A DNA stretch of 33,218 bases from an uncultured Bacteroidales bacterium (GTDB lineage: Bacteria > Bacteroidota > Bacteroidia > Bacteroidales > Muribaculaceae). The position numbers and the translations under genes are program-made. The notes below the pieces were generated by a model. That model was not told the origin of the DNA, ran no database searches, and saw only the letters and a list, made by a program, of their open reading frames with translations. The stretch spans positions 1 to 33,218 of the forward strand of contig CACYAW010000029.1 of NCBI GenBank assembly GCA_902772455.1, written 5' to 3'. This document shows positions 6,416 to 20,794 of the stretch, piece by piece. How positions within the stretch are numbered: the stretch's first letter is position 1; each line of letters begins with the position of its first letter.

Positions 6416-6465
6416 AGTGAGGAGTTATAAGTGAGGAGTTCGCTAACAACTAGAAACCAGAAATT
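6416..6465 (+). repeat. 7-nt periodic repeat array in front of cstA
   Basis: AGTGAGGAGTT occurs at 6416-6426 and again at 6430-6440, 14 nt (two heptads) apart, so AGT recurs every 7 nt at 6416, 6423, 6430 and 6437. A right-hand part follows with AACTAGA (6448-6454) and AACCAGA (6455-6461), ending 4 nt before the cstA ATG. The two halves are offset by a shift in phase. This is the most degenerate of the five heptad arrays. Confidence 0.5.
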
Positions 6466-8013
6466 ATGATTACTTTTATCATCAGTCTTGTGGCCCTGGT
6501 GCTGGGCTATCTGGTATATGGAGCCATCGTGGAGCGTGTGATGCGCCCCGATGACCGTGAAACGCCGGCTATACGCTTGGCCGACGGCGTGGACTACGTG
6601 GCACTGCCCACGTGGAAGGTGTTTATGATCCAGTTCCTGAACATTGCGGGAACGGGACCCATCTTCGGTGCTATTATGGGTATGTGGTTCGGTCCCGCCA
6701 GCTACTTGTGGATTGTGCTGGGCTGCATCTTTGCCGGCGCGGTGCACGACTTCATGAGCGGTATGCTGTCGCTTCGAAATGACGGTGCCAACCTGCCGAC
6801 GCTCATCGGCAAGTACCTGGGCGGTGGCGCGCGCAACGTGATGCTCGTCTTTACCGTGCTGCTGTTGATGATGGTGGGTGCCGTGTTTGTTTATAGTCCA
6901 GCCATGATCTTGGCTAACATGAGCGGGGGCGATAGTACCACCATCTGGTGGATAGTAGCCATTTTTGCCTACTATGTGATTGCCACGCTGCTGCCTATCG
7001 ACAAAATCATCGGCCGTGTCTATCCCTTATTTGCCATCGCCCTGCTGGTGATGGCTGCGGGACTGCTGGTGGGCTTGTTGGTCAAGATGCCGCACCTGCC
7101 CGAACTGTGGAACATGGGTGACTTGTCACAATGGACCGGCAGTCAGGTTGTTGACGGCAAGGACACGCTGGGTATCAGCGCCTTCTTGAGCAAGAATTCC
7201 CTCTTCCCCTGCATGTTCATCACCATCGCTTGTGGAGCCATCAGCGGCTTCCACGCCACACAAAGTCCCTTGATGGCCCGTTGTCTCAAGAGTGAGCGCC
7301 TGGCCAGGCCCGTATTCTATGGCGCGATGATTACCGAGGGAGCTGTGGCCCTCATCTGGGCAACCGTATCGTCCTATTTCTTCTATTACGGCGGCTGGAA
7401 AGAGATTGTCAGTCCCGAGGTGGTCAACGACTTCATGGCACAGGTGCAACTGGCCGACGGCCAGACCTTGATCCAGTACTTCACCGCACCCGAGGTGGTC
7501 AACCTGGTGTGCAGCGGCTGGCTGGGCGTCGTGGGTGGCACGCTGGCCGTGCTGGGCGTTGTGGCCGCTCCCATCACGAGTGGCGACACGGCATTTCGCA
7601 GTGCGCGACTCATCATTGCCGAGGCACTGCACTTTGAGCAAAAGAGCATGGTGCGCCGCCTGACGATCAGTGTTCCCCTGTTTGTGGCCTCACTGCTGCT
7701 GCTCATCTGGCAAATGGAGAACCCCAACGGCTTTAACGTGCTATGGCAATACTTCGGCTGGTCCAACCAGGCCCTGTCGGTATTCACGTTATGGATGATT
7801 ACCGTATATCTGGCCCACCACCGCAAGCCATACATCATCACGTTGATTCCTGCCATCCTGATGACGACAGTGTGCACTACCTTCCTGGTGGTATCGCCCC
7901 AGGCTTTCGGTCTCAAAGAACTACTGCCCTGGACCGTCATCGCCGTCATTGCGGTAGCTGTCGTGTGGTTTGGCATCTGGCTCCATAAGGACCGCGCCAC
8001 CAGCAAGTTGTAA
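6466..8013 (+). CDS. cstA: CstA-family carbon starvation / peptide or pyruvate transporter
   Basis: A 515-aa polytopic membrane protein with about a dozen hydrophobic segments. The first 150 residues carry the conserved CstA core, including FLNIAGTGPIFGAIMG, the AGAVHDF segment and SLRNDGANLPTLIGKYLG. Later family blocks such as CGAISGFHATQSPLMARCLKSE and ITSGDTAFRSARLI are present. Family members in E. coli import peptides (CstA) or pyruvate (BtsT); which applies here is unknown. It is shorter than the about 700-aa E. coli proteins, as is usual for members from Bacteroidota. The start follows a heptad repeat array by 4 nt. A strong terminator follows the stop codon, so this gene ends a transcript. 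Confidence 0.9.
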   Translation: MITFIISLVALVLGYLVYGAIVERVMRPDDRETPAIRLADGVDYVALPTWKVFMIQFLNIAGTGPIFGAIMGMWFGPASYLWIVLGCIFAGAVHDFMSGMLSLRNDGANLPTLIGKYLGGGARNVMLVFTVLLLMMVGAVFVYSPAMILANMSGGDSTTIWWIVAIFAYYVIATLLPIDKIIGRVYPLFAIALLVMAAGLLVGLLVKMPHLPELWNMGDLSQWTGSQVVDGKDTLGISAFLSKNSLFPCMFITIACGAISGFHATQSPLMARCLKSERLARPVFYGAMITEGAVALIWATVSSYFFYYGGWKEIVSPEVVNDFMAQVQLADGQTLIQYFTAPEVVNLVCSGWLGVVGGTLAVLGVVAAPITSGDTAFRSARLIIAEALHFEQKSMVRRLTISVPLFVASLLLLIWQMENPNGFNVLWQYFGWSNQALSVFTLWMITVYLAHHRKPYIITLIPAILMTTVCTTFLVVSPQAFGLKELLPWTVIAVIAVAVVWFGIWLHKDRATSKL

Positions 8014-8044
8014 ACAGCCAATAAAGCGTGAAATAAATTTACAT

Positions 8045-8080
8045 CAAGCCATCAGGGGCAAAACTCCCTGATGGCTTTTT
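8045..8080 (+). terminator. Rho-independent terminator after cstA
   Basis: An 11-bp perfect stem, AGCCATCAGGG (8047-8057) with CCCTGATGGCT (8066-8076), has an 8-nt loop and is followed by a run of T. It ends the transcript that includes cstA. Its T-run overlaps the -33 element of the rpoN promoter. Confidence 0.92.
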
Positions 8081-8109
8081 GGGTAATTGAAAACTTTATA
8101 CTACCTTTG
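8078..8109 (+). promoter_or_regulatory. Bacteroidota-type promoter of rpoN
   Basis: TTTG (8078-8081), a 20-nt spacer, then TACCTTTG (8102-8109), matching TTTG-N20-TAnnTTTG. The start codon is 30 nt further on. Confidence 0.75.
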
Positions 8110-8139
8110 TAGGTTACAACGATAAAACCTCTAACGACG

Positions 8140-9603
8140 ATGGCAAAACAGGGACTTACACTCGAGCAGAAGCAGACGCAACGGCTGGCACTGGAGCAAC
8201 AGCGCCTCCTGGGGCTCATCTTGGAGAAAAACGATGCCGAAATGGCCGAATTCATCGACAACAAGGTCAATGAGATTCAGGCTCTTGAAAAAAAGTCTGA
8301 CGACGATGATGAATATGGTAACGACAAGGAGAACCGCAATGACAATGACCAGGGTGATGGCGCCACCACACCCAGTGGCGAGGTGAATAGCGACGGCGAC
8401 GATGACACGGCGGCGTGGTACCGCTATTTTGCCAACAACCGCAGCCGCGACGATGAGTACTATGAGCCGATTGCCGTGAGCGAGAAAACCCTGCAAGAGT
8501 TTCTGGCCGACCAACTCGGAGAGCTGGAACTCGATGAGACCCAACTAATTATTGCCCATGCCATCGTGGGAAACCTGGAGGATAACGGATATCTGCGTCG
8601 CTCGGTAAGTGAGATAGCCGATGATGTGACGTTCAACGACGGTTATGTCGTGGACGCGGCACAGGTTGAGAAAGTGCTGGCCATCATACAGTCGCTGGAT
8701 CCGCCCGGCATCGCGGCACGTGATCTGAGGGAGTGCATCCTGCTGCAGTTGCGCCGCAAACCTCAGAGCGAAGATGTGGACCTGGCCATCGAAATGGTCG
8801 AGAAGTATTTTGACGATTTCGCTGCCATGCGTTTCGACACGCTGGCCCGCAAGATGGGTGTGCCCAGCGAGCGCCTGGAATATGTGTTCAAGCATCAGAT
8901 CAGGCGTGGGCTTAATCCGCATCCCGGCAACGCATTCGGCTCCCGTGCCGACAACAGCCAGCAGGTGACGCCCGACTTTGACGTGGAACTGGAGGAGGAG
9001 ACAGGACGGCTGACGGTGACACTGCGCAACAACATTCCCGCATTGCAGATCAGCGAGAGTTATGTCCTGTTGAATGACCGCTACAAGACTTCCGCACCGC
9101 TGAGTGTGAAAGAAAACAAGGAGAAAAAGCAGATTCAGGACGCTTACCAACGCGCCAGCATGTTTATCGAGGTGCTCAAGCAGCGGCAAGAGACGTTGTT
9201 CAAGACCATGAGCGCTATCGTTAAATGTCAGCAGGAATACTTCCTGCATGGCGACGAGCGTGACCTCAAACCCCTGGGACAGCAACAGATTGCCGACATG
9301 ATAGGCAAGGACGTTTCGGTTGTCTCAAGGGCTGTAAGCAACAAGTATGTCCAGCTGCCATGGGGCGTGAAAAGCCTCAAGTCCTTCTTTAGCGAGGACA
9401 TCAACGGCTCGTCGAGGCACGAGGTCTATGATGACCTGAAGAAACTCGTGGACGGCGAGGACAAGAAGCACCCCTTGAGCGACGACGCCCTGTGCGACAT
9501 GCTCAAGAAGATGGGATATAAACTGGAACGGCGCACCGTGGCCAAGTACCGTGATGCCCTGAAGATTCCCAGCAGCACCATTCGCCGCAAGATGTCCCGA
9601 TAG
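8140..9603 (+). CDS. rpoN: RNA polymerase sigma-54 factor RpoN
   Basis: Directs RNA polymerase to -24/-12 promoters, where opening needs an AAA+ activator. The 487-aa product has the expected order: a Gln/Leu-rich region I (about 1-50) that contacts activators; a highly acidic linker (about 55-90, many Asp/Glu); a core-binding domain (about 105-250); and a DNA-binding part with a helix-turn-helix (about 385-415). The RpoN box RRTVAKYR (464-471), which reads the -24 element, is intact. The length fits the family. It has its own promoter, just after the cstA terminator. The PAP2-like gene follows after a 69-nt gap filled by a heptad repeat array. No bacterial enhancer-binding protein gene is in the window, so its targets cannot be inferred. 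Confidence 0.96.
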   Translation: MAKQGLTLEQKQTQRLALEQQRLLGLILEKNDAEMAEFIDNKVNEIQALEKKSDDDDEYGNDKENRNDNDQGDGATTPSGEVNSDGDDDTAAWYRYFANNRSRDDEYYEPIAVSEKTLQEFLADQLGELELDETQLIIAHAIVGNLEDNGYLRRSVSEIADDVTFNDGYVVDAAQVEKVLAIIQSLDPPGIAARDLRECILLQLRRKPQSEDVDLAIEMVEKYFDDFAAMRFDTLARKMGVPSERLEYVFKHQIRRGLNPHPGNAFGSRADNSQQVTPDFDVELEEETGRLTVTLRNNIPALQISESYVLLNDRYKTSAPLSVKENKEKKQIQDAYQRASMFIEVLKQRQETLFKTMSAIVKCQQEYFLHGDERDLKPLGQQQIADMIGKDVSVVSRAVSNKYVQLPWGVKSLKSFFSEDINGSSRHEVYDDLKKLVDGEDKKHPLSDDALCDMLKKMGYKLERRTVAKYRDALKIPSSTIRRKMSR

Positions 9604-9609
9604 CGTTAT

Positions 9610-9672
9610 CAGTTCCCAGTCTCTAGTTGCAACTGGCAACTGGAAACTAATAACTAGAAACTAACAACTACA
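9610..9672 (+). repeat. Nine-unit 7-nt repeat array with inverted halves, ending at a start codon
   Basis: AGT or ACT recurs every 7 nt at nine successive positions: AGT at 9611, 9618 and 9625, then AACT at 9631, 9638, 9645, 9652, 9659 and 9666. The last unit ends at 9672, directly against the ATG at 9673. The left units are reverse complements of the right ones, so 9611-9628 can pair with 9631-9648 across a GC loop (14 of 18 positions match). The TAA/TAG triplets at 9648, 9655 and 9662 put stops in all three frames. Confidence 0.85.
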
Positions 9673-10314
9673 ATGAACAAATTTTCAGTCAACAAGTTCA
9701 TCGCGGGGTTTGCCCGATTCCTGACAACGACACTCAGCCCGCTGCTGATGCCCACTTATGGCGTTTTCCTTGCCTTGTGGGTGTCGGTACTGTGCCTGCT
9801 GCCTTATGGGCGGCGAGTGGCCGTGCTGCTTGTCTGTATGGGCATCACATGCATCGTTCCCCTGATTTTCTTGAACGTATTGCGCCACTTCAACCTTGTC
9901 AAGGACTTGAATGTCGAGGTGCGTGAACAGCGTCTTTTGCCTTACCTGTTCTCGTCATTCTGCTGTGGTGTGGCAGCCTATTATCTGTATTTCACCTGCC
10001 ATGCCCCGCAATGGTTTGCCATGTTTATGGTGGGAGCGGCCATCACGATGCTCGTGATGGCGGTCATCAACCTATGGTGGAAAATCAGCGCACACATGGC
10101 GGGCATCGGCGGGGTTATCGCCTTGTTTTATCAGATTCATGTACAGGGTTTGAGTGCGTTTGACATGTTGTGGCTGCTGTGTCTCGCCATTATTGTGGCG
10201 GGATTGCTGGGCACGTCACGGTTGGTGCTCAGGCGGCATGACATCTGGCAGTTGCTAGCCGGCGTTGCAGTGGGTTTCCTGTGCGTGTCAACCACCATGC
10301 GCTTGTTGGGCTGA
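9673..10314 (+). CDS. PAP2-like integral membrane phosphatase
   Basis: A 213-aa protein with about six hydrophobic segments. It carries a divergent set of the three PAP2 signature motifs: K77 with R87-LLP90 (motif 1), S139-x-H141-x-x-G144 (motif 2), and S182-R183 with H189 (motif 3, SRLVLRRH). PAP2 enzymes remove phosphate from membrane lipids such as phosphatidic acid or undecaprenyl pyrophosphate. Next to ispG, and with a classical uppP at 21118, a polyprenyl-lipid phosphatase is plausible, but the substrate is inferred. The start codon directly abuts the heptad array. ispG begins 47 nt after the stop. Confidence 0.72.
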   Translation: MNKFSVNKFIAGFARFLTTTLSPLLMPTYGVFLALWVSVLCLLPYGRRVAVLLVCMGITCIVPLIFLNVLRHFNLVKDLNVEVREQRLLPYLFSSFCCGVAAYYLYFTCHAPQWFAMFMVGAAITMLVMAVINLWWKISAHMAGIGGVIALFYQIHVQGLSAFDMLWLLCLAIIVAGLLGTSRLVLRRHDIWQLLAGVAVGFLCVSTTMRLLG

Positions 10315-10331
10315 TGGCGAATGCCTTTTTA

Positions 10332-10361
10332 AACTTTTAACTCAAAACTTTAAACTAACAT
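10332..10361 (+). repeat. Four-unit AACTnnn heptad array in front of ispG
   Basis: AACT occurs at 10332, 10339, 10346 and 10353, exactly 7 nt apart. The last unit ends 2 nt before the ATG at 10362. The three variable positions differ between units, so period and core are conserved but the exact unit is not. Confidence 0.75.
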
Positions 10362-12182
10362 ATGAATTTCAACTATAGTCGCCGCCACACCGTGAGCGTT
10401 AATGTGGGCGGCATCGCGATGGGCAGCGAGTGGCCGGTGCGTGTACAGTCGATGACCAACACTGCAACCGACGATATTGACGCCAGTGCCGCACAGTGCC
10501 AGCGAATCGCCTATGCAGGGGCCGACTATGTGCGGCTTACCGCACAAGGTGTGAAACAGGCACACAGCATCGGTGAGGTGTCACAGGTGCTGCGGGCACA
10601 GGGGTGCGACATTCCGCTCATTGCCGACATCCATTTCAATCCGCAGGCAGCCCTTGCCGCTGCTGAGGTGTGTGAGGGCGTGCGCATCAATCCGGGCAAC
10701 TTTGTGGATCCTGCCCGCACGTTCAAGCAGTTGGATTATACCCAAGAGGAATATGAGGCTGAACTGGCCCGCATCCGTGAGGCATTGCTGCCTTTTATCG
10801 CGGTGTGCCGTGAGCATCACACGGCGGTGAGGCTGGGCGTGAACCACGGTTCGTTAAGCGACCGCATCATGAGCCGCTTTGGCAACACTGCCGCGGGAAT
10901 GGTCGAGAGCGTCATGGAGTTTTTGAGGGTGTTTGTTCAGGAGAAGTTTATGGATGTGGTCATCTCGATGAAGGCATCTAACGTCGTGGTCATGGTCGAG
11001 GCGGTGCGCCGCCTGGTGGACGCGATGGATCGTGAGGACATGCATTTCCCGCTGCACCTGGGCGTTACCGAGGCAGGATTTGGCGAGGATGGACGTGTCA
11101 AGAGCGCTGTGGGTATCGGTGCTCTCATGGCTCAAGGATTGGGTGACACCATCCGCGTCTCACTCAGCGAGGATCCTGAACTGGAAGTGCCCGTGGCACA
11201 TAAGCTGGTGGATTACATCTCGCAGCGGGAAGGACATGACCCCATCAGTGGGGAGTACTGCGAGGGATATGACCCCTTGTGCCCCATGCGCCGCAAGACC
11301 ATTACGGTGAGTGACCGCATCGGTGGATCGCAACAGCCCGTGGTCATTGCCAGCTACCGTCCCGACGAACTTAAGGGCGCACAGTTGCAACCCGACTTCT
11401 ATTATAGCGAGAGCGGACTTATTGACGGCATGCACCAGTTCCTGGTGCCGCTAGGCAGCTGGCGTGGTGAGCGCAACGTTTACCCCTTGCTCACATTGGG
11501 CGAGTGGGAGCGTTGCCCCGAGGTGCCGATGCGCTTCCTGCAACTGCCGGCTACCACACCGGTGGAACGGCTGGAATTCCTCAAGGGACGCAACGATACC
11601 GTTCTGGTCATCACTCCCGTGGGTGTGAACATTCCCGGGGAGCAGCAGGCATTGACACACGCAATGGATGCGGCAGGCATACAATGCCCTGTAGTCATGC
11701 GCAACACCTATGCCGACAGTTCCAACGAGTGGCTGCAGGTCAAGGCAGGTGCCGATTTAGGTGCTGTACTGCTCAACGGGCGTGCCGACGGCGTCTGGCT
11801 CGAAGCCCCCAACTGCCACAGTTGTGATGATGTGGTACGTTATGCCTTTGCCATCCTGCAGGCCGCACGCCAGCGCACCACCAAGACCGAGTTCATCTCG
11901 TGTCCCGGATGCGGGCGTACGATGTTTGACCTCCAGACGACCGTCCAGCGCGTTCAACAGGCAACAGCCCACCTGACTCACCTCAAGATTGGTGTCATGG
12001 GCTGCATTGTCAACGGCCCAGGCGAGATGGCCGATGCCGACTATGGATACGTCGGTGCCGCGGCAGGGCGCATCAGCCTGTACAAGGGCAAGCAGTGCAT
12101 CGAGATGAATATCCCCGAGGATGAAGCCATTGACCGCCTCGTTGCCCTCATCAAGCAGCACGGGGATTGGAAAGATGCCTGA
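10362..12182 (+). CDS. ispG: 4-hydroxy-3-methylbut-2-en-1-yl diphosphate synthase IspG (GcpE)
   Basis: Catalyses the penultimate step of the MEP isoprenoid pathway, converting methylerythritol cyclodiphosphate to HMBPP with a [4Fe-4S] cluster; the product feeds undecaprenyl and quinone side-chain synthesis. This is the long form of 606 aa found in Bacteroidetes, Chlamydiae and plants: an N-terminal TIM barrel (about 1-270), an inserted central domain (about 280-480), and a C-terminal reductase-like domain. The cluster ligands lie in CPGCGRT (about 514-520) and in MGCIVNGPGE (about 546-555). The N-terminal RVQSMTNTATDD segment is the usual family start. The ATG follows a four-unit heptad array. 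The DUF4369 lipoprotein follows after about 70 nt with no terminator between. Confidence 0.96.
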   Translation: MNFNYSRRHTVSVNVGGIAMGSEWPVRVQSMTNTATDDIDASAAQCQRIAYAGADYVRLTAQGVKQAHSIGEVSQVLRAQGCDIPLIADIHFNPQAALAAAEVCEGVRINPGNFVDPARTFKQLDYTQEEYEAELARIREALLPFIAVCREHHTAVRLGVNHGSLSDRIMSRFGNTAAGMVESVMEFLRVFVQEKFMDVVISMKASNVVVMVEAVRRLVDAMDREDMHFPLHLGVTEAGFGEDGRVKSAVGIGALMAQGLGDTIRVSLSEDPELEVPVAHKLVDYISQREGHDPISGEYCEGYDPLCPMRRKTITVSDRIGGSQQPVVIASYRPDELKGAQLQPDFYYSESGLIDGMHQFLVPLGSWRGERNVYPLLTLGEWERCPEVPMRFLQLPATTPVERLEFLKGRNDTVLVITPVGVNIPGEQQALTHAMDAAGIQCPVVMRNTYADSSNEWLQVKAGADLGAVLLNGRADGVWLEAPNCHSCDDVVRYAFAILQAARQRTTKTEFISCPGCGRTMFDLQTTVQRVQQATAHLTHLKIGVMGCIVNGPGEMADADYGYVGAAAGRISLYKGKQCIEMNIPEDEAIDRLVALIKQHGDWKDA

Positions 12183-12251
12183 AAATGGTCGATAGCATCG
12201 TGTGGAGAGAGAATATATAACCAAGTGCGGAAGCCCAACATAAAGAGTAAA

Positions 12252-13256
12252 ATGAAAAGAATATCGTTCTTCTTGCTTGTATGTCTGGCCTTGGCTTCGT
12301 GCAGCAGCGACGAATTCAAGATTGACGGCTCGCTCATGGATCTTGACGGCAAAACCGTCAGGGTTGTATTTCATGGAGACTCGGCCCTGGTCGATGAAGA
12401 TGTCGAGGTTGATGATAAGGGACATTTCACCTTCAAGGCCTCGTCGTCACAACCCGTCCTGATTAACCTCATGAACTGGCGTGGTGAGCCACTGGTGTCA
12501 CTCGTCGCAACTAATGGTGACCACCTCAAGGTCAAGGGTAGTGCAGGTAAAGCCATGGGCCTCAAAGTGAGTGGCAACCGCCTCAACGAGGACTGGCAAC
12601 TCTTCCGTGACGAGCATGCCGCCTTCTATGCTGATCCCAATCCCAGCCGCCTGGATGCCGCTATTGAGAAATATGTGCGCGAGCATCCCGATGACATGCT
12701 CTCTACCGTCCTGTTGCTGGCCGATTATAGCGATTACAGCGACCGTGGCAAGATGGATAAGATGTTGAAAAGCCTGAAAACCGAGGCGCGTCCTAAGTCT
12801 TTGCTCCAGCCATTCCAAGACAATCCGGCATGGCGAGGAAAGGACCTTGTCCCTCGCCTGATGACTCTCAACCTGATAAAACATGATGGGGGTGATGTGG
12901 AAATCAGCCTGACGAAACAGAAAACCTTGATTAGCCTTTGGGCCAACCCCCAAAACAGCCGCAACGGCCTCATCGGCAAACTGCAAGCGCTCGATAAGAG
13001 TGTGCGCGTCATTGATATCCTTGCTGAGAGTGATTCCTTGCAGTGGCACAAGACCATCAGCGCCGACCCGGAGCACTGGCAGCATTACTGGGCACCAGGT
13101 GGCCCTCTTGAGCCAGGCATACAGTTGTTGGGCATCACTTCACTGCCGTGGTTTGCCGTTACCGACAGCACCGGTCTGGTCACTTACTCAGGCCCCGACC
13201 TGCCCACCGCGATCACCACTCTCACGTCAAAGGAGAATAAAACGCCTGTAAAATAG
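12252..13256 (+). CDS. DUF4369 lipoprotein with a cysteine-free thioredoxin-like domain
   Basis: A 334-aa exported lipoprotein. The signal peptide ends in a lipobox with the acylated cysteine at C17 (ALASC-SS). Residues about 20-110 resemble DUF4369, a beta-rich domain that in Bacteroidota usually precedes a TlpA-like thiol-disulfide domain. The C-terminal part (about 220-334) looks like that domain: a hydrophobic strand leading into LWANPQNS (229-236), and a late SLPWFAVTDSTG that fits the cis-proline strand. Where oxidoreductases have WCxxC, this protein has no cysteine, so redox chemistry is unlikely; a binding or structural role is my inference. The ATG at 12252 is preferred over 12225 because it starts the signal peptide cleanly. 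A terminator follows. Confidence 0.78.
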   Translation: MKRISFFLLVCLALASCSSDEFKIDGSLMDLDGKTVRVVFHGDSALVDEDVEVDDKGHFTFKASSSQPVLINLMNWRGEPLVSLVATNGDHLKVKGSAGKAMGLKVSGNRLNEDWQLFRDEHAAFYADPNPSRLDAAIEKYVREHPDDMLSTVLLLADYSDYSDRGKMDKMLKSLKTEARPKSLLQPFQDNPAWRGKDLVPRLMTLNLIKHDGGDVEISLTKQKTLISLWANPQNSRNGLIGKLQALDKSVRVIDILAESDSLQWHKTISADPEHWQHYWAPGGPLEPGIQLLGITSLPWFAVTDSTGLVTYSGPDLPTAITTLTSKENKTPVK

Positions 13257-13280
13257 GGCCATTAGGTGATTTCCCATTCC

Positions 13281-13323
13281 GAGCATCAGGGGAGTTGATC
13301 AGGTATGACCACTGATGCTTTTT
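13281..13323 (+). terminator. Rho-independent terminator after the DUF4369 gene
   Basis: An 8-bp perfect stem, AGCATCAG (13282-13289) with CTGATGCT (13312-13319), has a 22-nt loop and is followed by five T. It closes the transcript that includes ispG. Confidence 0.8.
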
Positions 13324-13354
13324 CCTGTTAAATGTGACTATTGGTATGGCAGGA

Positions 13355-13376: not shown

Positions 13377-13447
13377 GATAGAGGTGTGCGGTTTCTAAAA
13401 AAATGAGAAAAGTTGGGCGAGGTGATGATCTTGTTGAGAAATATCAT

Positions 13448-13455: not shown

Positions 13456-13495
13456 TAAGTTATTCATTTATATATAGGGATTAACAGCACTAGAT

Positions 13496-15898
13496 ATGGC
13501 ACGGAAAAGTGGAATTCAATCGTTGAAACAGGAACGTCGTGAGTATCACGACAGGGTGATTAACTTCTTTAATGCGCAGGGAGAAGGGACATTCAACTAC
13601 AAGCAAGTGTCGGCTGCCGTTGGGGCCAATACTCCCAAACGGCGTACGATTATTGTCGAAATTCTCGACCAGCTGGCCGTTGACGGCTTTTTGGCTCAAG
13701 TGGGACCTGGCAGCTACAAGGCGGTGAACCGTTCGTCGGTTGCCGAGGGTATCTTCATCCGTCGCGGTAACGGCAAGAATAGCGTGGACACTGCCAGCGA
13801 CGACGGCCTGCCTATCATGGTTGCTGAGCGCAACTCGATGCATGCCCTGAACGGCGACCGTGTGCTGGTGCACATCAAGGCCGTGCGCCATGGTATGGAG
13901 CCCGAGGCCGAGGTAGTGAAAATCCTTGAGCGCAAGGAGCAGGTGTTTGTGGGTACGCTGCAGGTCATGAAGTATTTCGCCCAGTTGGCTACCGACAGCA
14001 AGTTCTTGGCTACCGACATCTTCATTCCCCTCGACAAACTTGCCGGGGGCAGGACGGGTGACAAGGTGGTGGCAAAGATTGTCGATTGGCCCGAGGATGC
14101 CAACTCGCCCATTGGAGAGGTGGTTGACGTGCTGGGTGTCGCCGGCGAGAATAATGCCGAAATCCACGCCATCCTGGCCGAGTTTGGGCTGCCTTACAAA
14201 TATCCCGAGAAAGTGACCGAGGCTGCTGAGGCGCTGGAGCCGGGAATCACCCCCGAGGAGGTGGCCAAACGCAGGGATATGCGTGATGTGACCACGTTCA
14301 CCATCGACCCTGCCGATGCCAAAGACTTTGACGATGCCCTATCTATCGAGAAACTCAAAAACGGCAACTGGGAAATCGGTGTACACATCGCCGATGTGAG
14401 CCACTATGTCACGCCGGGCTCGATCATCGATAAGGAAGCCTATGAGCGCGCCACATCGGTCTATCTGGTGGACCGCACGGTGCCCATGCTGCCCGAGAAA
14501 TTGTGTAACTTTATTTGCTCACTCCGTCCCGATGAGGATAAACTCACTCATTCGGTCATTCTGGAAATGGATGCCGAAGCCAAGGTGAAGAAATACAAAA
14601 TATGCCATACGGTAACCCGCAGCAACAGGCGGTTCTCCTATGAGGAGGCACAGCAGATTCTGGAAACCGGCAAGGGCGACCTCGCCGAAGAACTTGCCGT
14701 GCTCAACGAGATGGCCAAGCAGTTGAGGAAACGCCGCTTTGAAGAAGGCGGCTCGGTGTCGTTCAACCGTGAGGAAATCAAGTTTGACATCGATGAGAAC
14801 GGTAAGCCCATCGGTGTCCATGTACACGAGTCTAAGGAGGCCAACAAGCTTATCGAGGAATTCATGCTGCTGGCCAACTGCAAGGTAGCGGAGCACATCG
14901 GCAAGGTGGCCAAGAACCGTACCGCCAAGTCATTTGTCTATCGTGTTCACGACCAGCCAGACCTTGACAAGTTACAGAATTTTGCCGACATCGCAGCCCA
15001 CTTTGGCTACAAGGTGCGCACTAAGGGGTCGGGCCGTGACATCAACAAGTCCATCAACAAGATGCTCGAGGAAGCAAAGGGCAAGCCCGAGGAGGAGATG
15101 CTCTCCATCCTCGCTATCCGTTCGATGGCCAAGGCTGTTTATAGCGCGACCAACATCGGCCACTATGGCCTGGCCTTTGACTACTATACCCACTTCACTT
15201 CGCCCATTCGCCGTTATCCTGACTTGACGGTACACCGTCTGCTCGACCTGTATGCCGGTGGCGGCAAGAGTGTGGATCCTGTCAAGCTCGAGGACCAGTG
15301 CAAGCACATGAGCGCTCAGGAACAGCTGGCTGCTAACGCCGAGCGTGCCTCCATCAAGTACAAGGAGGTCGAGTTCATGGGTCAGCGCTTGGGCGGTGTG
15401 TTCAAGGGGCACGTTTCGGGCGTGACCGAGTGGGGCCTGTATGTCGAACTTGACGAGACCCATTGCGAGGGTCTGGTGGGCATCCGTGGCCTGGATGACG
15501 ACTTCTATGAGTTCGACGAGAAGAACTACTGCATTCGCGGCCGCCGTCGCAACAAGGTATATAGCCTGGGCGATCCCATCACTATCCAGGTAGCCCGTGC
15601 CGACTTGATCAAGAAGCAGCTCGACTTTGTTCTTGTGGACAAGGAGAATCCCGCCAATACCCACCGCATCGACCGTGAGCCCATCACCGAGCAGAACAGC
15701 CGTGGCGGTAGCGGACGCCTCTCCCGTGACGAGCGCCAGCGCATCCAGTACGAGGGCAGTAGCGCCTCACGCCGCCAGCAGCGCGGTCAACGTGGCAACA
15801 ACACCCGCCGCCAAGCTCGCGAAGTACGCGATAACAAGGTCGGCAGACCCGGACGCAAATCCGGCCGCTCTGGCAAGCCCCGTGGCCGCAAGAGGTAA
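13496..15898 (+). CDS. rnr: Ribonuclease R
   Basis: An 800-aa processive 3'-to-5' exoribonuclease of the RNB family that degrades structured RNA and takes part in RNA quality control. Domains in order: an N-terminal winged-helix-like region (about 10-75), cold-shock OB folds (about 80-220), the RNB catalytic domain starting with the aspartate cluster DPADAKDFDDA (about 270-280), the conserved FTSPIRRYPDL segment late in RNB, an S1 RNA-binding domain (about 630-700), and a basic Arg/Gly/Ser-rich tail (about 735-800). The four catalytic aspartates are present. The length fits the family. The ATG at 13496 lies 40 nt after a TATCTTTG element. mtaB follows after 52 nt. Confidence 0.96.
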   Translation: MARKSGIQSLKQERREYHDRVINFFNAQGEGTFNYKQVSAAVGANTPKRRTIIVEILDQLAVDGFLAQVGPGSYKAVNRSSVAEGIFIRRGNGKNSVDTASDDGLPIMVAERNSMHALNGDRVLVHIKAVRHGMEPEAEVVKILERKEQVFVGTLQVMKYFAQLATDSKFLATDIFIPLDKLAGGRTGDKVVAKIVDWPEDANSPIGEVVDVLGVAGENNAEIHAILAEFGLPYKYPEKVTEAAEALEPGITPEEVAKRRDMRDVTTFTIDPADAKDFDDALSIEKLKNGNWEIGVHIADVSHYVTPGSIIDKEAYERATSVYLVDRTVPMLPEKLCNFICSLRPDEDKLTHSVILEMDAEAKVKKYKICHTVTRSNRRFSYEEAQQILETGKGDLAEELAVLNEMAKQLRKRRFEEGGSVSFNREEIKFDIDENGKPIGVHVHESKEANKLIEEFMLLANCKVAEHIGKVAKNRTAKSFVYRVHDQPDLDKLQNFADIAAHFGYKVRTKGSGRDINKSINKMLEEAKGKPEEEMLSILAIRSMAKAVYSATNIGHYGLAFDYYTHFTSPIRRYPDLTVHRLLDLYAGGGKSVDPVKLEDQCKHMSAQEQLAANAERASIKYKEVEFMGQRLGGVFKGHVSGVTEWGLYVELDETHCEGLVGIRGLDDDFYEFDEKNYCIRGRRRNKVYSLGDPITIQVARADLIKKQLDFVLVDKENPANTHRIDREPITEQNSRGGSGRLSRDERQRIQYEGSSASRRQQRGQRGNNTRRQAREVRDNKVGRPGRKSGRSGKPRGRKR

Positions 15899-15917
15899 AA
15901 GATTAGTGTTAGATTTA

Positions 15918-15944
15918 TCCGTTAACTCCGTTATATCCGTCTAG
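15918..15944 (+). repeat. Three-unit 9-nt tandem repeat TCCGTnnAn in front of mtaB
   Basis: TCCGT begins at 15918, 15927 and 15936, exactly 9 nt apart. The array ends 6 nt before the mtaB ATG. Related sequence with the same 9-nt period occurs at 25551-25586. Confidence 0.65.
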
Positions 15945-15950
15945 TAATAA

Positions 15951-17258
15951 ATGACCTCCGCCCCGCAACATAGAGTCAAACTCGAGACGCTGGGTTGCAA
16001 ACTCAATTTCTCAGAGACCGCCACCATGCAGTCTCTCCTTGCCGAGCATGGCATCCTGCCTGTTGCCAAGGGCGAGATGCCTGATGTCTGTGTGGTTAAC
16101 ACGTGCAGCGTGACGGCCTTGGCCGACAGCAAATGCCGCCAACACATCCGCCACCTCATCCGTCAGTATCCCGATGCGCTGATGGTGGTCACGGGCTGTT
16201 ATGCGCAGCTCAAGGGCAAGGAAATTGCCGAAATACCTGGAGTGGACATCGTGTTGGGCAGTGAGCACAAGGCCGAAATTGCCCGGTATGTGCTGCAGTG
16301 GTTCGAGGACCGCCAGCACCAGCTGGCCGTGACTCCGTCGTTGGATATCCGAACGTTCTCGCCCTCGTGTGACCGGGGGGACCGCACACGCTACTGGCTC
16401 AAGGTTCAGGACGGATGTGACTACTGGTGCAGTTATTGCACCATTCCTGCCGCCCGTGGGCGCAGTCGTAGCGGCACCATTGCCCAGCTCACCGCCCAGG
16501 CCCGCGAGGTGGCCGCCGAGGGTGGCAAGGAAATCGTCATCACGGGTGTGAACATCGGTGACTTTGGCAAGAACACGGGCGAGCAATTCCTGGATTTGCT
16601 CAAAGCGCTTGACGATATCGAGGGCATCGAACGTTACCGCATCTCGTCGATTGAGCCCGACCTGTTGACCGATGACATCATTGACTGGTGCGCCGGTTCA
16701 CGGGCATTCATGCCCCATTTCCACATCCCGTTGCAGAGTGGAAGTGACCCCATCCTGAAACTGATGCGACGCCACTACGAGCGGCAGCTTTTTGCCGACA
16801 AGGTGGCACGTTGCCGTGAGCTGATGCCCGACTGCTTCATCGGTGTGGATGTGATGGTGGGCACCCGTGGCGAGACGCCCGAACTGTTCGAGGACAGTTA
16901 CAACTTTATCAAGTCGCTGGACGTGCAGCACCTGCACGTGTTCCCCTACAGCGAGCGACCGGGCACGATGGCCCTGCGCATCCCCTACATCGTCACCCAG
17001 CAGGACAAGCAGCAGCGTGCCGCACGCATGATCGCCCTGAGTGACGAGAAGCAGGCTGACTTCACCCGCCGCTACCTGGGTGCTGTGCGCCCTGTATTGC
17101 TCGAACATGGGCGCGGCAAGGGCAAGATGCACGGTTTTACCGATAACTACATCCGTGTCAACGTGGAGCCCGACATGAGCCTCGCCAACCAGATCGTCAA
17201 CGTGAAGTTATTGACCCTTAACGATGACCTGAGCGTCGATGCCCAAGTCATGACATGA
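15951..17258 (+). CDS. mtaB: tRNA t6A37 methylthiotransferase MtaB
   Basis: A radical-SAM enzyme that adds a methylthio group to N6-threonylcarbamoyl-adenosine at position 37 of ANN-decoding tRNAs. The 435-aa protein has the family layout: an N-terminal UPF0004 domain with cysteines in LGCKLN, NTCSVT and VTGCYAQ for the auxiliary cluster; the radical-SAM motif CDYWCSYC (C156, C160, C163); the central TIM barrel with HIPLQSGSDPILKLMRRHY; and a C-terminal TRAM-like segment. GCKLN and the overall length distinguish it from MiaB and RimO, though I rank MtaB by pattern only. The start at 15951 gives the usual short N-terminus. The glycosyltransferase gene begins 6 nt after the stop. tRNA-Asn, which carries t6A in bacteria, is encoded twice in this window. 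Confidence 0.9.
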   Translation: MTSAPQHRVKLETLGCKLNFSETATMQSLLAEHGILPVAKGEMPDVCVVNTCSVTALADSKCRQHIRHLIRQYPDALMVVTGCYAQLKGKEIAEIPGVDIVLGSEHKAEIARYVLQWFEDRQHQLAVTPSLDIRTFSPSCDRGDRTRYWLKVQDGCDYWCSYCTIPAARGRSRSGTIAQLTAQAREVAAEGGKEIVITGVNIGDFGKNTGEQFLDLLKALDDIEGIERYRISSIEPDLLTDDIIDWCAGSRAFMPHFHIPLQSGSDPILKLMRRHYERQLFADKVARCRELMPDCFIGVDVMVGTRGETPELFEDSYNFIKSLDVQHLHVFPYSERPGTMALRIPYIVTQQDKQQRAARMIALSDEKQADFTRRYLGAVRPVLLEHGRGKGKMHGFTDNYIRVNVEPDMSLANQIVNVKLLTLNDDLSVDAQVMT

Positions 17259-17264
17259 TATAAG

Positions 17265-18284
17265 ATGAAACGAGTCGCTGTCATCATATTGAACTGGAAC
17301 GGTGCGAAATTGTTGCGCCGCTATCTGCCCACGGTCTTCGAGGGCACCGATGCCGCTATCGCCGATGTCATTGTCGCCGATAACGGAAGCACCGACGAGA
17401 GTCTGCAGGTGCTCGAGCAGGAATTCCCCGAGGTCAAGGTGATCAAGTTTGACCGGAATTACGGCTTTGCCGAGGGGTATAACCTGGCTATTGCCCAGAC
17501 GATGTACCCCTACACTGTGCTGCTCAACAGCGATGTGCGCACTCCGCGAGGTTGGCTCAACCCGCTCCTCGACTACATGGAACGTCAGCGCAACGTAGGT
17601 GCCGTGATGCCAAAATTGCTTCACGACCGCGAGGATGGCAAGCAGATGTTTGAGTATGCCGGCGCAGCTGGCGGTTACATCGACTGCCACGGCTATCCCT
17701 ATTGCCGCGGACGTATTTTTGAGTTTGTCGAGGACGATCATGGCCAGTATGACGACGGGCCCAAGAGCGTCTTTTGGGCAACAGGGGCATGCCTGATGGT
17801 ACGCAGCCAGTTGTATCAGGACGTGGGAGGACTCGATAAGGAGTTTTTTGCCCACATGGAGGAGATTGACTTGTGCTGGCGCATCCGCTTGTCAGGCAGC
17901 GATTTGCTGATGGTGCCTGAGAGTCACGTCTATCATCTGGGCGGAGGCAGTCTGCCCCAGGGCAATCCCCGCAAGACCTACCTCAACTTCCGCAACAACC
18001 TGTTGCTGTTGCACAAGAACCTGCCCCGCAGCGAGGGCAAACGCCTGCTGTTTGTCCGCCGTCTGATGGATACGCTGGCTTTTGGCATGGCTATGGCAAA
18101 ATTCCATTTTGGGGATGCCAAGGCTATCATACGGGCACACCGCGACTTCCGCAAAATGCGTTCCCACTACACTTCCCAGCCCACGGTCAACCTGCTCAAG
18201 CAGTTGCCCGAGGAACGCGTCAACATCATCACTGCCCACTACCTGCGTGGCGTGAAGTTGTTCACCGACCTGAAAATCCAATGA
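17265..18284 (+). CDS. Family 2 glycosyltransferase (rhamnosyltransferase-like)
   Basis: A 339-aa GT-A fold enzyme. The nucleotide-sugar binding start VAVIILNWNGAKLL (about 3-16), the ADNGSTDES segment (about 43-51), the metal-binding stretch LLNSDVRTPRGW (about 86-97; the usual DxD is represented by NSD), and an ATGACLMVRS segment followed by FAHMEEIDLCWRIRLSG match GT2 enzymes of the WbbL/rhamnosyltransferase kind. The C-terminal 80 residues include a basic amphipathic helix that could touch the membrane. It probably adds a sugar to a cell-surface glycan; donor and acceptor are not readable. It lies 6 nt after mtaB and 41 nt before the aldo/keto reductase gene. mtaB next to a glycosyltransferase does not suggest a shared pathway. 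Confidence 0.9.
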   Translation: MKRVAVIILNWNGAKLLRRYLPTVFEGTDAAIADVIVADNGSTDESLQVLEQEFPEVKVIKFDRNYGFAEGYNLAIAQTMYPYTVLLNSDVRTPRGWLNPLLDYMERQRNVGAVMPKLLHDREDGKQMFEYAGAAGGYIDCHGYPYCRGRIFEFVEDDHGQYDDGPKSVFWATGACLMVRSQLYQDVGGLDKEFFAHMEEIDLCWRIRLSGSDLLMVPESHVYHLGGGSLPQGNPRKTYLNFRNNLLLLHKNLPRSEGKRLLFVRRLMDTLAFGMAMAKFHFGDAKAIIRAHRDFRKMRSHYTSQPTVNLLKQLPEERVNIITAHYLRGVKLFTDLKIQ

Positions 18285-18286
18285 GC

Positions 18287-18321
18287 AACTAAAAACTAAG
18301 GACTAATAACTAAAAACTGAA
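18287..18321 (+). repeat. Five-unit AACTnnn heptad array in front of the aldo/keto reductase gene
   Basis: AACT or GACT begins at 18287, 18294, 18301, 18308 and 18315, exactly 7 nt apart. The array starts 3 nt after the glycosyltransferase stop codon and ends 4 nt before the next ATG. TAA at 18290, 18297 and 18304 covers all three frames. Confidence 0.85.
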
Positions 18322-18325
18322 TAGG

Positions 18326-19441
18326 ATGAAAAAACTAGGTTTTGGACTCATGCGTCTGCCGCTGGTCAATCCCGACGACCAGTCGAGCATCGATATCGAC
18401 CAGTTTAAGCTGATGGCCGACAAGTTCATCGAGCGAGGCTTTACCTATTTCGACACTGCCTATCCCTATCACGGTGGTCAGAGCGAGATAGCCCTGCGCG
18501 AGGCTGTCGTCAAGCGTTACCCGCGCGAGGCTTTCACGGTGACCAGCAAGATGCCCGTGTGGGCCATCAAGGAGGAGGGCGACCTGGAACGTATTTTTAA
18601 CGAGCAGTTGGAAAAGTGTGGTGTGGATTATTTTGACTATTACTGGCTGCATGCACTCAACCACGAGCGTGTTGAGGTAATGGAACGCATGGATGGATGG
18701 GGATTCATCGCGCGCAAGAAGGCCGAGGGCAAGATACGTCACATCGGGTTCTCTTTCCATGATGACTCGGCATTGCTGGCCGAAATTCTGGAAAAACACC
18801 CTGAGGTGGAATACGTCCAGCTGCAAATCAATTATATGGATTGGGACAGCCCTGCCATTGAGAGCAAAACGTGCTATGACTTGTGCGTCAAGCATGGCAA
18901 GCCCGTCATCGTCATGGAGCCCGTCAAGGGTGGCTCGCTGGCCCGTGTGCCCGAAGTCATCGAACGCCTGTTCAAGGACTATAACCCCGATGCCAGCGCT
19001 GCTTCATGGGCCATACGCTACTGCGCATCGCTGCCCAATGTGATGATGGTGCTTAGCGGCATGAGCAACATGGAGCAACTGGAGGACAACACGTCTTACA
19101 TGCAGGATTTCCAGCCCCTCAACGACGAGGAGCAAAGCATTATCACCCGGGCGACCGAGGTCATCCGCGACGCCATCGCCATCCCCTGCACAGCATGCCG
19201 CTATTGTACCGAGGGATGTCCTCAGCAGATTGCCATCCCCGAGTACTTCAACCTGTACAACACCAGTCAACAGTTCCCGGAACTGAAGGCTAACAGCAAG
19301 CTCTATCACGACTTGATCGCCAAGAACCGCGGCAGTGCCAGCGAGTGTATCGAGTGTGGACAGTGCGAGGCCCAGTGCCCCCAGCACATCGACATCATCG
19401 ACAACCTCAAACTCGTTGCCCAAGCCTTCGAGCAATCTTGA
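18326..19441 (+). CDS. Aldo/keto reductase with C-terminal ferredoxin-like 4Fe-4S domain
   Basis: A 371-aa fusion of an aldo/keto reductase barrel (about 1-280) and a dicluster ferredoxin-like domain. The AKR tetrad is visible: D43 and Y48 in FDTAYPYH, K75 in TSKMP, and H109 in YYWLHA. The C-terminus carries CTACRYCTEGCP (about 288-299) and CIECGQCEAQCP (about 341-352), enough cysteines for two [4Fe-4S] clusters. Proteins of this layout are common in anaerobes and are annotated as oxidoreductases; the physiological substrate is unknown. The Fe-S domain suggests electrons come from or go to ferredoxin rather than only NADPH. The gene ends 2 nt before the stop codon of the convergent ATPase gene, with no terminator between them. 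Confidence 0.92.
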   Translation: MKKLGFGLMRLPLVNPDDQSSIDIDQFKLMADKFIERGFTYFDTAYPYHGGQSEIALREAVVKRYPREAFTVTSKMPVWAIKEEGDLERIFNEQLEKCGVDYFDYYWLHALNHERVEVMERMDGWGFIARKKAEGKIRHIGFSFHDDSALLAEILEKHPEVEYVQLQINYMDWDSPAIESKTCYDLCVKHGKPVIVMEPVKGGSLARVPEVIERLFKDYNPDASAASWAIRYCASLPNVMMVLSGMSNMEQLEDNTSYMQDFQPLNDEEQSIITRATEVIRDAIAIPCTACRYCTEGCPQQIAIPEYFNLYNTSQQFPELKANSKLYHDLIAKNRGSASECIECGQCEAQCPQHIDIIDNLKLVAQAFEQS

Positions 19442-19443
19442 TA

Positions 19444-20571
19444 TCAGCTCTTCTGCAACCAGTAGTGGAATAGTTGGTCTTCAATGTAGTAGCTGCCTTC
19501 ACTGGAGGTCACGAGGCCATACTCCATGAGTTTGCGAATGGCGGCTTGCACACTGCTGGCCGATTGCAGGTAGTGTCGCTTGATGAATTGTCCCGAGGTG
19601 ATTCGTTGTGCGCGTCCTTCGTCGGCAATGGCATATAGTAATTCTTTTTGTGGCAAGGTGAGTCGCGACAATGTCTCGCTGTATTTGTGTCCGCTTTCTC
19701 TCATCATGTCATCGATGATGTAGTCTACCATGGCTATGTCGCACGTTTTGCCAGTTTCGACTGATGCTGAGAAAGCCTCATGGAAAGTCTTCTGTATATA
19801 ATAAGTGTTACCTTGGAACTGCTGATAAACCTTGCTGATGGCTTCGGGTGTAACAGTGAGATGATTTGCCTTGAAATGGTGTTGGATAAACTCGCTGTAT
19901 TTATTGAAACTGATAGGTGACAGAGACATAATGGACGCACTTTGGTAGAACGGGCGTGCATGGTCAAGAAACATCTCTCCCATGATGTGTCGCTCACTGC
20001 CTGCAAAGATGTAATTGGCATTGGCTGACTGCTGGATGTGCGTTCGAAGCAGTGCTTCCACTTTTTTATCGGGATAGTTGACGATTTGTTGAAACTCGTC
20101 AATGGCTACAATACAGCGCTGCTCTGCTTTCTCCAGACAAGCGAAAATTTCTTCCAGCGTATAGGAGGGATTGGTTATTTCACCCAGTTTAATATCAAAA
20201 GTCGGTGTTCCTTGTATCGGGTCGTAGCCGAAACTGCCACGCAGCGAACGCAATGTATCGATGATGTTTTTCATCATCTGCTGGCTGCGACTTCCCAATG
20301 TCTTGAACACTGCGCGCCCCAGCAGATAGGTGAACTCTTGCAGGCTGGAGGTGTGCAGAATATCAATGAATAGGGTAGTAACCTGCTCTTGGACTTCGGG
20401 CTTGTCAAAACAGTGATAAATCAACCCGGTTTTTCCCAAACGACGTGGCGAGATGACCACCATATTTTCTCCGCCCGACATGATGCAGCGCGTGAGACGT
20501 TGGGCCTCCTCAATGCGGTCACAAAAGTATTCTGGTTTGATTTTGCCTGTAACGATAAACGGATTTTCCAT
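19444..20571 (-). CDS. AAA/STAND-type ATPase (archaeal ATPase-like)
   Basis: A 375-aa P-loop ATPase of the kind grouped with archaeal ATPases and STAND proteins, widespread in Bacteroidota with mostly unknown roles. It starts with NPFIVTGKI and a YFCDR segment, then Walker A SPRRLGKTG (41-49), Walker B IVAIDEFQQ (154-162), a sensor-like FAGSERHIM, and a C-terminal winged-helix-like part (about 300-375) that may bind DNA. It is the only minus-strand gene in the central part and separates the reductase gene from the DUF3098-uppP-truB-queA run. Unlike its neighbours it has a canonical AAGGAGG 8 nt before the ATG and an AT-rich upstream region with repeats. Together these hint at insertion or transfer; function is not known. 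Confidence 0.85.
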   Translation of the reverse strand: MENPFIVTGKIKPEYFCDRIEEAQRLTRCIMSGGENMVVISPRRLGKTGLIYHCFDKPEVQEQVTTLFIDILHTSSLQEFTYLLGRAVFKTLGSRSQQMMKNIIDTLRSLRGSFGYDPIQGTPTFDIKLGEITNPSYTLEEIFACLEKAEQRCIVAIDEFQQIVNYPDKKVEALLRTHIQQSANANYIFAGSERHIMGEMFLDHARPFYQSASIMSLSPISFNKYSEFIQHHFKANHLTVTPEAISKVYQQFQGNTYYIQKTFHEAFSASVETGKTCDIAMVDYIIDDMMRESGHKYSETLSRLTLPQKELLYAIADEGRAQRITSGQFIKRHYLQSASSVQAAIRKLMEYGLVTSSEGSYYIEDQLFHYWLQKS

Positions 20572-20579
20572 AATAATAG

Positions 20580-20586
20580 CCTCCTT
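20580..20586 (-). promoter_or_regulatory. Canonical ribosome binding site of the ATPase gene
   Basis: On the minus strand AAGGAGG ends 8 nt before the ATG at 20571. A full anti-16S match is unusual in this window, where other genes have A-rich leaders or heptad repeats instead. Confidence 0.8.
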
Positions 20587-20594
20587 TTTAGCCG

Positions 20595-20626
20595 CAAAGT
20601 TAATTATTTAATTTGAATTATGCAAA
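20595..20626 (-). promoter_or_regulatory. Bacteroidota-type promoter of the ATPase gene
   Basis: On the minus strand TTTG (20626-20623), a 20-nt spacer, then TAACTTTG (20602-20595). The ATG is 23 nt beyond the -7 element. Confidence 0.78.
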
Positions 20627-20646
20627 TCAAATTATTTAATTTGAAT
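20603..20646. repeat. 16-bp direct repeat and inverted repeat over the ATPase promoter
   Basis: The perfect 16-mer ATTATTTAATTTGAAT occurs at 20603-20618 and 20631-20646, with starts 28 bp apart. One copy lies in the promoter spacer and one just upstream of the -33 element. CAAATTA (20628-20634) and TAATTTG (20637-20643) form an inverted repeat around TT. The arrangement looks like paired operator sites, possibly for autoregulation; this is inferred. Confidence 0.65.
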
Positions 20647-20698
20647 AATTTTCTATGGCCAGGTATTGGCCCCAAAATCTAAAAATGGGTTAAAACTA

Positions 20699-20729
20699 TT
20701 GACAAAGGCCTCTTGATGTAGTAATTTTG
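20699..20729 (+). promoter_or_regulatory. Bacteroidota-type promoter of the DUF3098-uppP-truB-queA run
   Basis: TTG (20699-20701), a 20-nt spacer, then TAATTTTG (20722-20729). The start codon of the DUF3098 gene is 67 nt downstream, after a leader that ends in three heptad repeats. Confidence 0.72.
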
Positions 20730-20773
20730 CGCCAAATTGCAGTGCTATGCGCCTGCACGCACTGTGTGATAGA

Positions 20774-20794
20774 GACTAGAAACTAAAAACTGAC
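20774..20794 (+). repeat. Three-unit heptad array in front of the DUF3098 gene
   Basis: GACT at 20774 and AACT at 20781 and 20788 are spaced exactly 7 nt. The array ends 2 nt before the ATG. TAG at 20777, TAA at 20784 and TGA at 20791 cover all three frames. Confidence 0.75.

Follow-up and report, generated by a model that had tools for sequence, protein, structure and literature searches.

Why should the start codons of five unrelated genes in one stretch of DNA follow directly on runs of a tandemly repeated heptanucleotide? The stretch, here termed the window, is the 33,218-nucleotide contig CACYAW010000029.1 of an uncultured Bacteroidales gut bacterium of the Muribaculaceae, and a preliminary description of it had placed units of the form AACTnnn, at an exact 7-nt period, 4, 0, 2, 4 and 2 nt before the ATG codons of the five genes. 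All five arrays were confirmed, coordinates and ATG distances included. Such arrays are real, ordered and widespread in this genus, and the translation-initiation reading first offered for them is in need of a stop-side half and of an operon-junction context.

A core-free scan of the window for 7-nt periodicity (lag 7, threshold 8) returned these five places and no others. The pattern AACTnnnAACTnnnAACT matched six times, in two of the five arrays, and not once in 100 dinucleotide shuffles, while AACTnnnAACT had 11 matches, spread over four of the arrays, where shuffles averaged 0.53; the arrays thus stand well clear of shuffled sequence of the window. In the whole genome (G000; 3.15 Mb, 163 contigs), four AACT cores at 7-nt spacing gave 74+70 matches, overlapping ones counted, and the reversed control pattern gave none. 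Arrays were called core-free, by lag, in a sample consisting of the window and 40 further G000 stretches (41 stretches, 819 kb). Twenty of the 40 had been picked for listed pattern matches; the other 20 opened further contigs, and as 18 of these stretches lacked the pattern among the matches listed, the set is rather array-poor. Genes were taken from our own codon-score caller, which makes no use of leader motifs, and the stops within forward arrays preclude a called start far upstream of the array.

At period 7 this sample held 113 arrays, 109 of them intergenic. Intergenic counts at lags 4, 5, 6, 8, 10, 11, 12 and 13 were 4, 5, 7, 12, 13, 7, 5 and 3, lag 9 gave 37, and lags 14 and 21 are harmonics of 7. 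The top 4-mer at 7-nt spacing was CTAA with its complement TTAG, followed by AACT with AGTT; CTAA and AACT are largely the same repeat in two registers. Lag 9 was the second commonest intergenic period among the non-harmonic lags tested, and arrays of TCTAGAnnn at period 9 were seen immediately 5' of period-7 arrays at L010:14997-15060 and L012:3013-3043, with GCGGATGCC followed by AATTCG 9-mers elsewhere. Tandem repeats of about 34-40 nt (beginning AGTCCAGGCGAGCCGCG) were observed outside called genes at L014:15556-15664.

The placement of the arrays was analysed relative to gene boundaries. The nearest boundary was a start for 58 and a stop for 54 of the 113 arrays, one array having none. 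A start was the nearest boundary, within 8 nt, for 48/112 arrays, against a mean of 4.6 and a maximum of 9 in 100 random intergenic placements, which bears out that arrays precede start codons beyond chance; a stop lay within 8 nt of 21/112, against 4.7 by random placement. On the coding strand of the nearest gene, arrays at starts were 48 forward and 10 reverse, a clear strand bias, and arrays at stops were 13 forward, 39 reverse and 2 mixed. The 20 stretches not picked by array content repeated this pattern within 30 nt of a boundary (start forward/reverse 12/3; stop forward/reverse 0/12, with 1 mixed), and arrays likewise clustered at starts and stops in two other genomes of the genus. Pooled over four samples, and with arrays of related species taken as independent in the tests, composition on the coding strand had A above T in 84/95 start arrays and C below G in 89/116 stop arrays. 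Among co-directional junctions with at least two arrays, 34/36 had the stop-side array reversed and the start-side array forward. The two kinds also shared junctions more often than expected: 27 junctions had both kinds, 52 a start array only, 29 a stop array only and 273 neither (odds ratio 4.9, p=4e-7). Since orientation is ordered at starts and at stops, the rule is that the CTAA/AACT strand points outward from the intergenic middle into both neighbours. The mirror set at stops had been missed by the preliminary description, and initiation alone fails to explain it.

Arrays were also unevenly distributed over types of junction, being densest in promoterless co-directional ones, a further point that the preliminary description had missed. 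Of the co-directional G000 junctions without a Bacteroidota -7 box (TAnnTTTG type), 61/292 carried arrays, as against 9/99 of those with such a box. Expressed as array-bearing regions per kb of array-free DNA, box-less and box junctions differed as 2.61 vs 0.25 in G000 and 2.48 vs 0.13 in G009; the values were 2.79 vs 1.38 in G024, a weaker contrast from stretches picked near matches, and 1.53 vs 0.22 in the relatives, a sample that may share one genome with G024 at non-overlapping places. The non-array remainder of promoterless array-bearing junctions amounted to a median of 22 nt. A promoter role, with the box at or beside the element, was rejected because most arrays occupy regions that lack a promoter-like box (61 of the 70 array-bearing co-directional G000 regions). 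Judged from these sequences, most arrays are probably co-transcribed, i.e. lie within mRNA. At the promoter-bearing leader of the sigma-54 gene of the window (8140), a period-7 stretch was flagged in 2/36 relatives, both times upstream of the promoter-like box, and at the junction before the PAP2-like gene such a stretch, of various units, was found in 14/46.

Leaders with arrays were more open than others. The mean unpaired probability at -20..+15 had a median of 0.68 in 89 array leaders and 0.53 in 387 controls, and the array leader was more open than its own shuffled version in 71/89. In 67 start-side arrays of at least four units, A was enriched and G depleted in the two ATG-proximal units relative to the remainder of the array (p=0.0005 for A and for G by permutation within arrays, the floor of 2000 permutations); 61 stop-side arrays had no significant gradient (A p=0.05, G p=0.12). 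The commonest start-side units were CTAAAAA, CTAAGGA, CTAACAA and CTTAAAA, and common stop-side units included CTAACTC, CTAACTT, CTAAAGC and CTAAAAC. In the Bacteroidete Prevotella bryantii, a structure of -5.2 kcal/mol at the start region brought expression down to about one fifth and a hairpin about 20 nt upstream of the start caused no loss of expression (PMC3155529), and A at -3, -6, -12 and -13 promoted initiation in Flavobacterium johnsoniae (PMC6847099). Placement at starts, forward orientation, openness and the proximal A/G gradient thus partly support the earlier idea of a translation-initiation element. A precise element or ribosome-contact motif is unsupported, because the register to the ATG is free, no fixed heptad register having been found across 71 arrays.

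Stop codons are a further property of the units. All six frames were closed in 39/49 start-side and 21/35 stop-side G000 arrays, with 9.8 and 7.1 expected after column permutation, in counts that are not independent since the arrays have common ancestry. For arrays at most 30 nt from a stop, the gene's stop codon lay entirely within the array in 31/71 cases in G000, 7/20 in G009, 12/40 in G024 and 9/43 in the relatives.

The arrays of the window and their stop-side counterparts are as follows.

6448 to 6461, plus strand: start-side heptads, weak, before cstA; the last unit ends 4 nt 5' of the ATG at 6466 (lag-7 segment 6443-6463, score 8).
6415 to 6440, minus strand: stop-side units at the cstA junction, AACTCCTCACTTATAACTCCTCACTC read on the minus strand, identified by eye from the sequence.
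9605 to 9629, minus strand: stop-side inverted units AGTT/AGTC/AGTT at 9611, 9618 and 9625 (spacing 7 nt).
9631 to 9672, plus strand: six AACTnnn units, the array abutting the ATG at 9673 of the PAP2-like gene (0 nt gap).
9605 to 9654, plus strand: predicted intercistronic RNA hairpin, the stop-side segment pairing with 9631-9654; 18 unpaired nt remain before the ATG.
10332 to 10359, plus strand: four AACTnnn units before ispG, 2 nt from the ATG at 10362.
18287 to 18321, plus strand: five units, one of them GACTAAT, before the aldo/keto reductase gene, 4 nt from the ATG at 18326.
20774 to 20794, plus strand: three units before the DUF3098 gene, 2 nt from the ATG at 20797.

The downstream genes were assigned by Pfam to CstA, PAP2-like (PF01569, below cut-off), GcpE/IspG, aldo/keto reductase with 4Fe-4S domains and DUF3098. 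The array before cstA, with one exact AACT unit and one variant, is weaker than the other four, and the stop-side units at that junction, 4 nt from the upstream stop codon, received no call in the lag-7 scan. The stop-side segment before the PAP2-like gene starts 1 nt past the stop codon of the upstream sigma-54 gene, and 2 nt separate the reductase array from its upstream stop codon. The DUF3098 array is an exception to the promoterless-junction pattern, being located in a divergent intergenic region, 3' of a promoter-like box (TAATTTTGC). This divergent region also contains AATTATTTAATTTG repeats with a period of 14 nt (20602-20651). Elsewhere in the window, a tandem pair of tRNA-Asn (GTT) genes was seen on the minus strand at 25640-25822, and a perfect 19-nt tandem duplication lies within predicted coding sequence at 32647-32685.

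Folding of the PAP2 junction (9604-9675) gave -19.2 kcal/mol (z -4.3), and 0/200 shuffles were as stable. Values of z<-2 against shuffles were reached by 16/27 two-arm junctions, 18/52 junctions with a start array only and 25/80 sampled array-free junctions. Of eight hand-picked stretches that were folded, five had z below -3, the lowest -8.6, the two-armed copies among those picked giving z -8.6 (L024), -7.4 (L027) and -5.1 (L061). The only Rfam matches above gathering score, in the window as well as in L010, L024, L027, L036, L040 and L061, were tRNAs. Locally coevolving hairpin arms were looked for and not found, either in 14 pairs (p=0.21) or in 34 junctions, where own arms formed 16.4 pairs and swapped arms 16.6; since own and swapped arms pair alike, stop-side arms are interchangeable as partners.

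The arrays turn over between species. The four-unit AACT pattern was matched in 20/24 same-genus genomes, with 2 to 325 matches each. The closest relatives by ispG came from rumen/gut assemblies, most of which bear the label Muribaculaceae, Prevotellaceae or Bacteroidales (79 loci retained from 119 relatives), and at ispG and PAP2 the same place held other heptads in relatives (AACGTCT/AGCATCT, AAGTCTA, GGACTAA/GAACTAA, AACTGAA, GGTTAAT). Starts in these relatives were assigned to whichever in-frame ATG lay closest to the aligned N-terminus, and the comparison is therefore no independent proof of the start. At the cstA junction, the relative L049 had extra copies, in steps of 7 nt, between nearly identical flanks. 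Over eight locus pairs of sister species, 8 of the 12 indels counted in array context were multiples of 7, in a count that omitted multiples of 3 (thus also 21) and lengths below 4. The core common to the genus is YTAR, in which each strand carries a stop codon. Related species may rewrite the unit around this core and yet retain its place and its period, a point absent from the preliminary description. Stop codons in the two strands alike were present in 23 of the 38 distinct units of the relatives, where shuffled units gave an expectation of 7.9, and in 16/43 of those in other Bacteroidales (9.5 expected).

Intergenic arrays at lag 7 and lag 8 numbered 69 vs 9 in 34 relative loci and 29 vs 19 in 45 other-Bacteroidales loci. 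Over the whole order, exact CTAA heptads were found in 104/295 genomes and CTAA octads in 56/295, some of the latter being plain CTAA runs. Three Bacteroidales genomes (G063, G090 and G271) carried many CTAA arrays at period 8 instead (80+100, 60+142 and 57+59 matches), and AATCnnn (GATTnnn) heptads were abundant in others (G216, G280, G274 and G198). Across the order as a whole, such native AATC heptads make the reversed pattern a poor control.

Position, orientation, junction type, stops, openness, the A/G gradient, stem potential and turnover in 7-nt steps all come directly from computation, and one reading joins them. In this reading, to which we give a probability of roughly 0.5, the arrays are slippage-prone, self-renewing, ribosome-friendly spacers between the genes of a polycistronic mRNA. 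They would be transcribed spacers of tandem heptads with the core YTAR (mostly CTAAnnn, which is AACTnnn in another register), gaining and losing copies in 7-nt steps. On the start side, the array would supply an A-rich, G-poor, open leader suited to the initiation of Bacteroidota, which is independent of Shine-Dalgarno (SD) pairing; on the stop side, the mirrored copy would often hold the gene's own stop codon together with stops in the other frames. Where both sides are present, they may pair into an intergenic stem, with the nucleotides next to the AUG left unpaired (18 nt in the case of the PAP2 junction). As the units would be largely interchangeable, leader, stops and stem could all survive the gain or loss of copies. 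We infer that the arrays lie in the mRNA and assist initiation and that the stem exists in the cell.

Several results weigh against these spacers. Most start arrays are without a stop-side partner (52 start-only junctions, with 27 having both and 29 stop-only), 10 G000 arrays nearest to a start are reversed, and convergent regions, where no start codon is served, hold 15/113 arrays. The register to the ATG is free, the last ACTWA modulo 7 being distributed as 5, 10, 12, 14, 9, 6 and 15 (n=71). Antisense stops, of which translation has no need, are enriched at least as strongly as sense stops. SD-like 4-mers, rare anyway, were not rarer in array leaders (13/105) than in others (82/1155), and codon scores of array genes differed just marginally (p=0.049). 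As to the stem, the above-mentioned own arms pair no better than swapped arms, and three of the eight hand-picked stretches had no excess stability (z -1.1, -0.6 and -0.1, the last being the cstA junction). Counted per region, the box contrast is smaller in G000 (61/292 vs 9/99) and G009 (17/63 vs 1/17) and absent in G024 (23/82 vs 9/29), with 36/227 vs 10/100 in the relatives. Multiples of 7 also made up 8/24 indels outside called arrays, and 4/24 same-genus genomes had no AACT pattern match. Four genomes of other families (58-100-kb samples) yielded 2-8 intergenic lag-7 arrays and no clear boundary rule, so that the rule is established for this genus only. Finally, the spacer reading does not explain why unrelated loci of one genome draw on one vocabulary.

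This vocabulary comprised 176 distinct units among 664, led by CTAAAAA (70), CTAAGGA (42) and CTAACAA (41). No pair of arrays had a common mixed run of at least five identical heptads, fewer than a first-order unit-order model gives. The order of units is specific to the locus, and there was no sign that whole arrays had recently been copied from one place to another. A dispersed element may have seeded some arrays, but much of what they now consist of seems to have arisen by turnover in place from common units. The same observations can be set to work for passive slippage, by which 7-nt duplications would arise everywhere and persist where they are harmless, between genes, their position and composition being what coding sequence and leaders tolerate. 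Such an origin is possible though not likely. It would account for the 7-nt copy-number steps between sister species and for the locus-specific unit order without mixed runs of five or more heptads in common, and heptamers are the commonest long repeats in most genomes examined (Mrazek, as cited by MacGregor, PMC4679880); yet the long promoter-bearing regions, expected to be the most tolerant, are the poorest in arrays per kb, and neither the adjacency to starts and stops, which random placement does not give, nor the ordered orientation at both kinds of boundary, the one discrete vocabulary at unrelated loci or an A/G gradient at starts only is in keeping with mere tolerance.

A quite unlikely alternative is that the arrays are remains of a dispersed foldback element, in which a central core with outward heptad arms was inserted in junctions and remodelled by slippage. 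CTAA strands do run outward from the centre, and cores do lie directly beside arrays, namely GCGGATGC in 16/113 (GCGGATGCC in 12) and TCAGGCGATAnnAATCnTACT, but these two core motifs cover only about 24/113 arrays, and GCGGATGC was also found 49 times within genes, against 27 times outside. Foldback ancestry could further claim a loose second core, 12/14 matches of which in four samples (8 of them in G000) run into heptads, the strong folding of the hand-picked two-armed copies at L024, L027 and L061, and a 62-nt unit of hairpin, GCGGATGCC and heptads in tandem at L040:2594-2812. However, start-side and stop-side arrays are built of different units, and arrays in general have no long unit orders in common, so that none has been copied recently from another. 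The unit just mentioned, of about 60-62 nt, consists of the hairpin GCTCGCnnnnGCGAGC, GCGGATGCC and CTCTAAA heptads; a variant is likewise repeated in tandem at L036:7077-7217, and variant forms were also observed at L044:2930-3038, L019:13653 and L030:584-650. YTAR may be a target site of the IS5 type; none of the papers listed in a search of the literature had the word YTAR. Integron core sites (GTTRRRY) were considered and dropped because the start-side units do not fit them. Still less probable is MacGregor's proposal, by which the arrays would control a set of genes as binding sites of a protein (S1, Csp, CsrA or another) that recognises a specific RNA or DNA sequence: the vocabulary common within the genome, the exact period and the five window genes without a common function would suit such sites, but related species have different units before one and the same gene (ispG, PAP2), the heptad register is not tied to the ATG, and mirrored arrays stand at stops.

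The spacers of the preferred reading can tentatively be taken one step further, although we consider this step unlikely. The arrays might be a self-renewing operon punctuation, in which interchangeable YTARnnn heptads close all frames where one gene ends, form a register-tolerant stem and give the next gene an open, A-rich landing leader. It rests on the stop codon that YTAR carries on each strand and on a period indivisible by three, by which all frames would be closed. Were this true, gain and loss of copies could tune expression with function kept, and species could rewrite the unit while keeping period, core and placement. The arrays bear on how Bacteroidota choose start codons without SD pairing, and many leaders of one genome that use a few common words in varying number and order amount to a natural experiment in which the composition of leaders and the number of repeats both vary. 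The mirrored stop arrays and the replacement of units between relatives bear on the origin and upkeep of operon spacers.

Comparable elements are known from other bacteria. The repetitive extragenic palindromes (REP) and bacterial interspersed mosaic elements (BIME) of enterobacteria are intercistronic palindromes, and the arrays resemble them as dispersed palindromic stems, here predicted ones, between genes of one transcript; unlike them, the stems here are made of tandem heptads, with arms interchangeable between loci. The short tandemly repeated repetitive sequences (STRR) of cyanobacteria are heptanucleotide repeats. By description only, the arrays can be likened to STRR and to their long counterparts (LTRR), as short tandem repeats that are intergenic and in some cases part of an operon, an LTRR being reported in an intergenic region of the hyp operon (PMC2408588). 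Array leaders are low-GC, A-rich and open like the SD-less Bacteroidota leaders described in PMC3155529 and PMC6847099, but here this composition is supplied by a tandem repeat; the word 'repeat' is absent from the main text of PMC3155529.

The closest system is one that the preliminary description, which knew of no such element, had overlooked. MacGregor (2015) described TAACTGA heptads ending a few nucleotides before start codons in marine Beggiatoaceae and proposed translational control; the repeats are also found in Thiocystis violascens, some Cyanobacteria and five Bacteroidetes, and by Table 1 of that paper (PMC4679880) 147/170 sets point to starts and 12 to stops. PMC4853749 also concerns these repeats. 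In the titles and opening lines of abstracts listed by searches of the open-access literature, no description of degenerate or stop-side heptad arrays in Bacteroidales was found. TAACTGA doubles were not found in the 819 kb of G000, where CTAAAAA doubles numbered 12. The two systems have in common the exact 7-nt period, the AACT core, the intergenic location (109/113 arrays here), the forward placement a few nucleotides before starts and downstream genes without a clear common function. In contrast to the TAACTGA repeats, whose unit is fixed and whose related heptamers are rarely repeated, the units here vary around YTAR, and in contrast to the 12/170 sets at stops, the mirrored stop set here is about as large as the start set. 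Variable units around YTAR and a mirrored stop-side set are thus what is new in these arrays.

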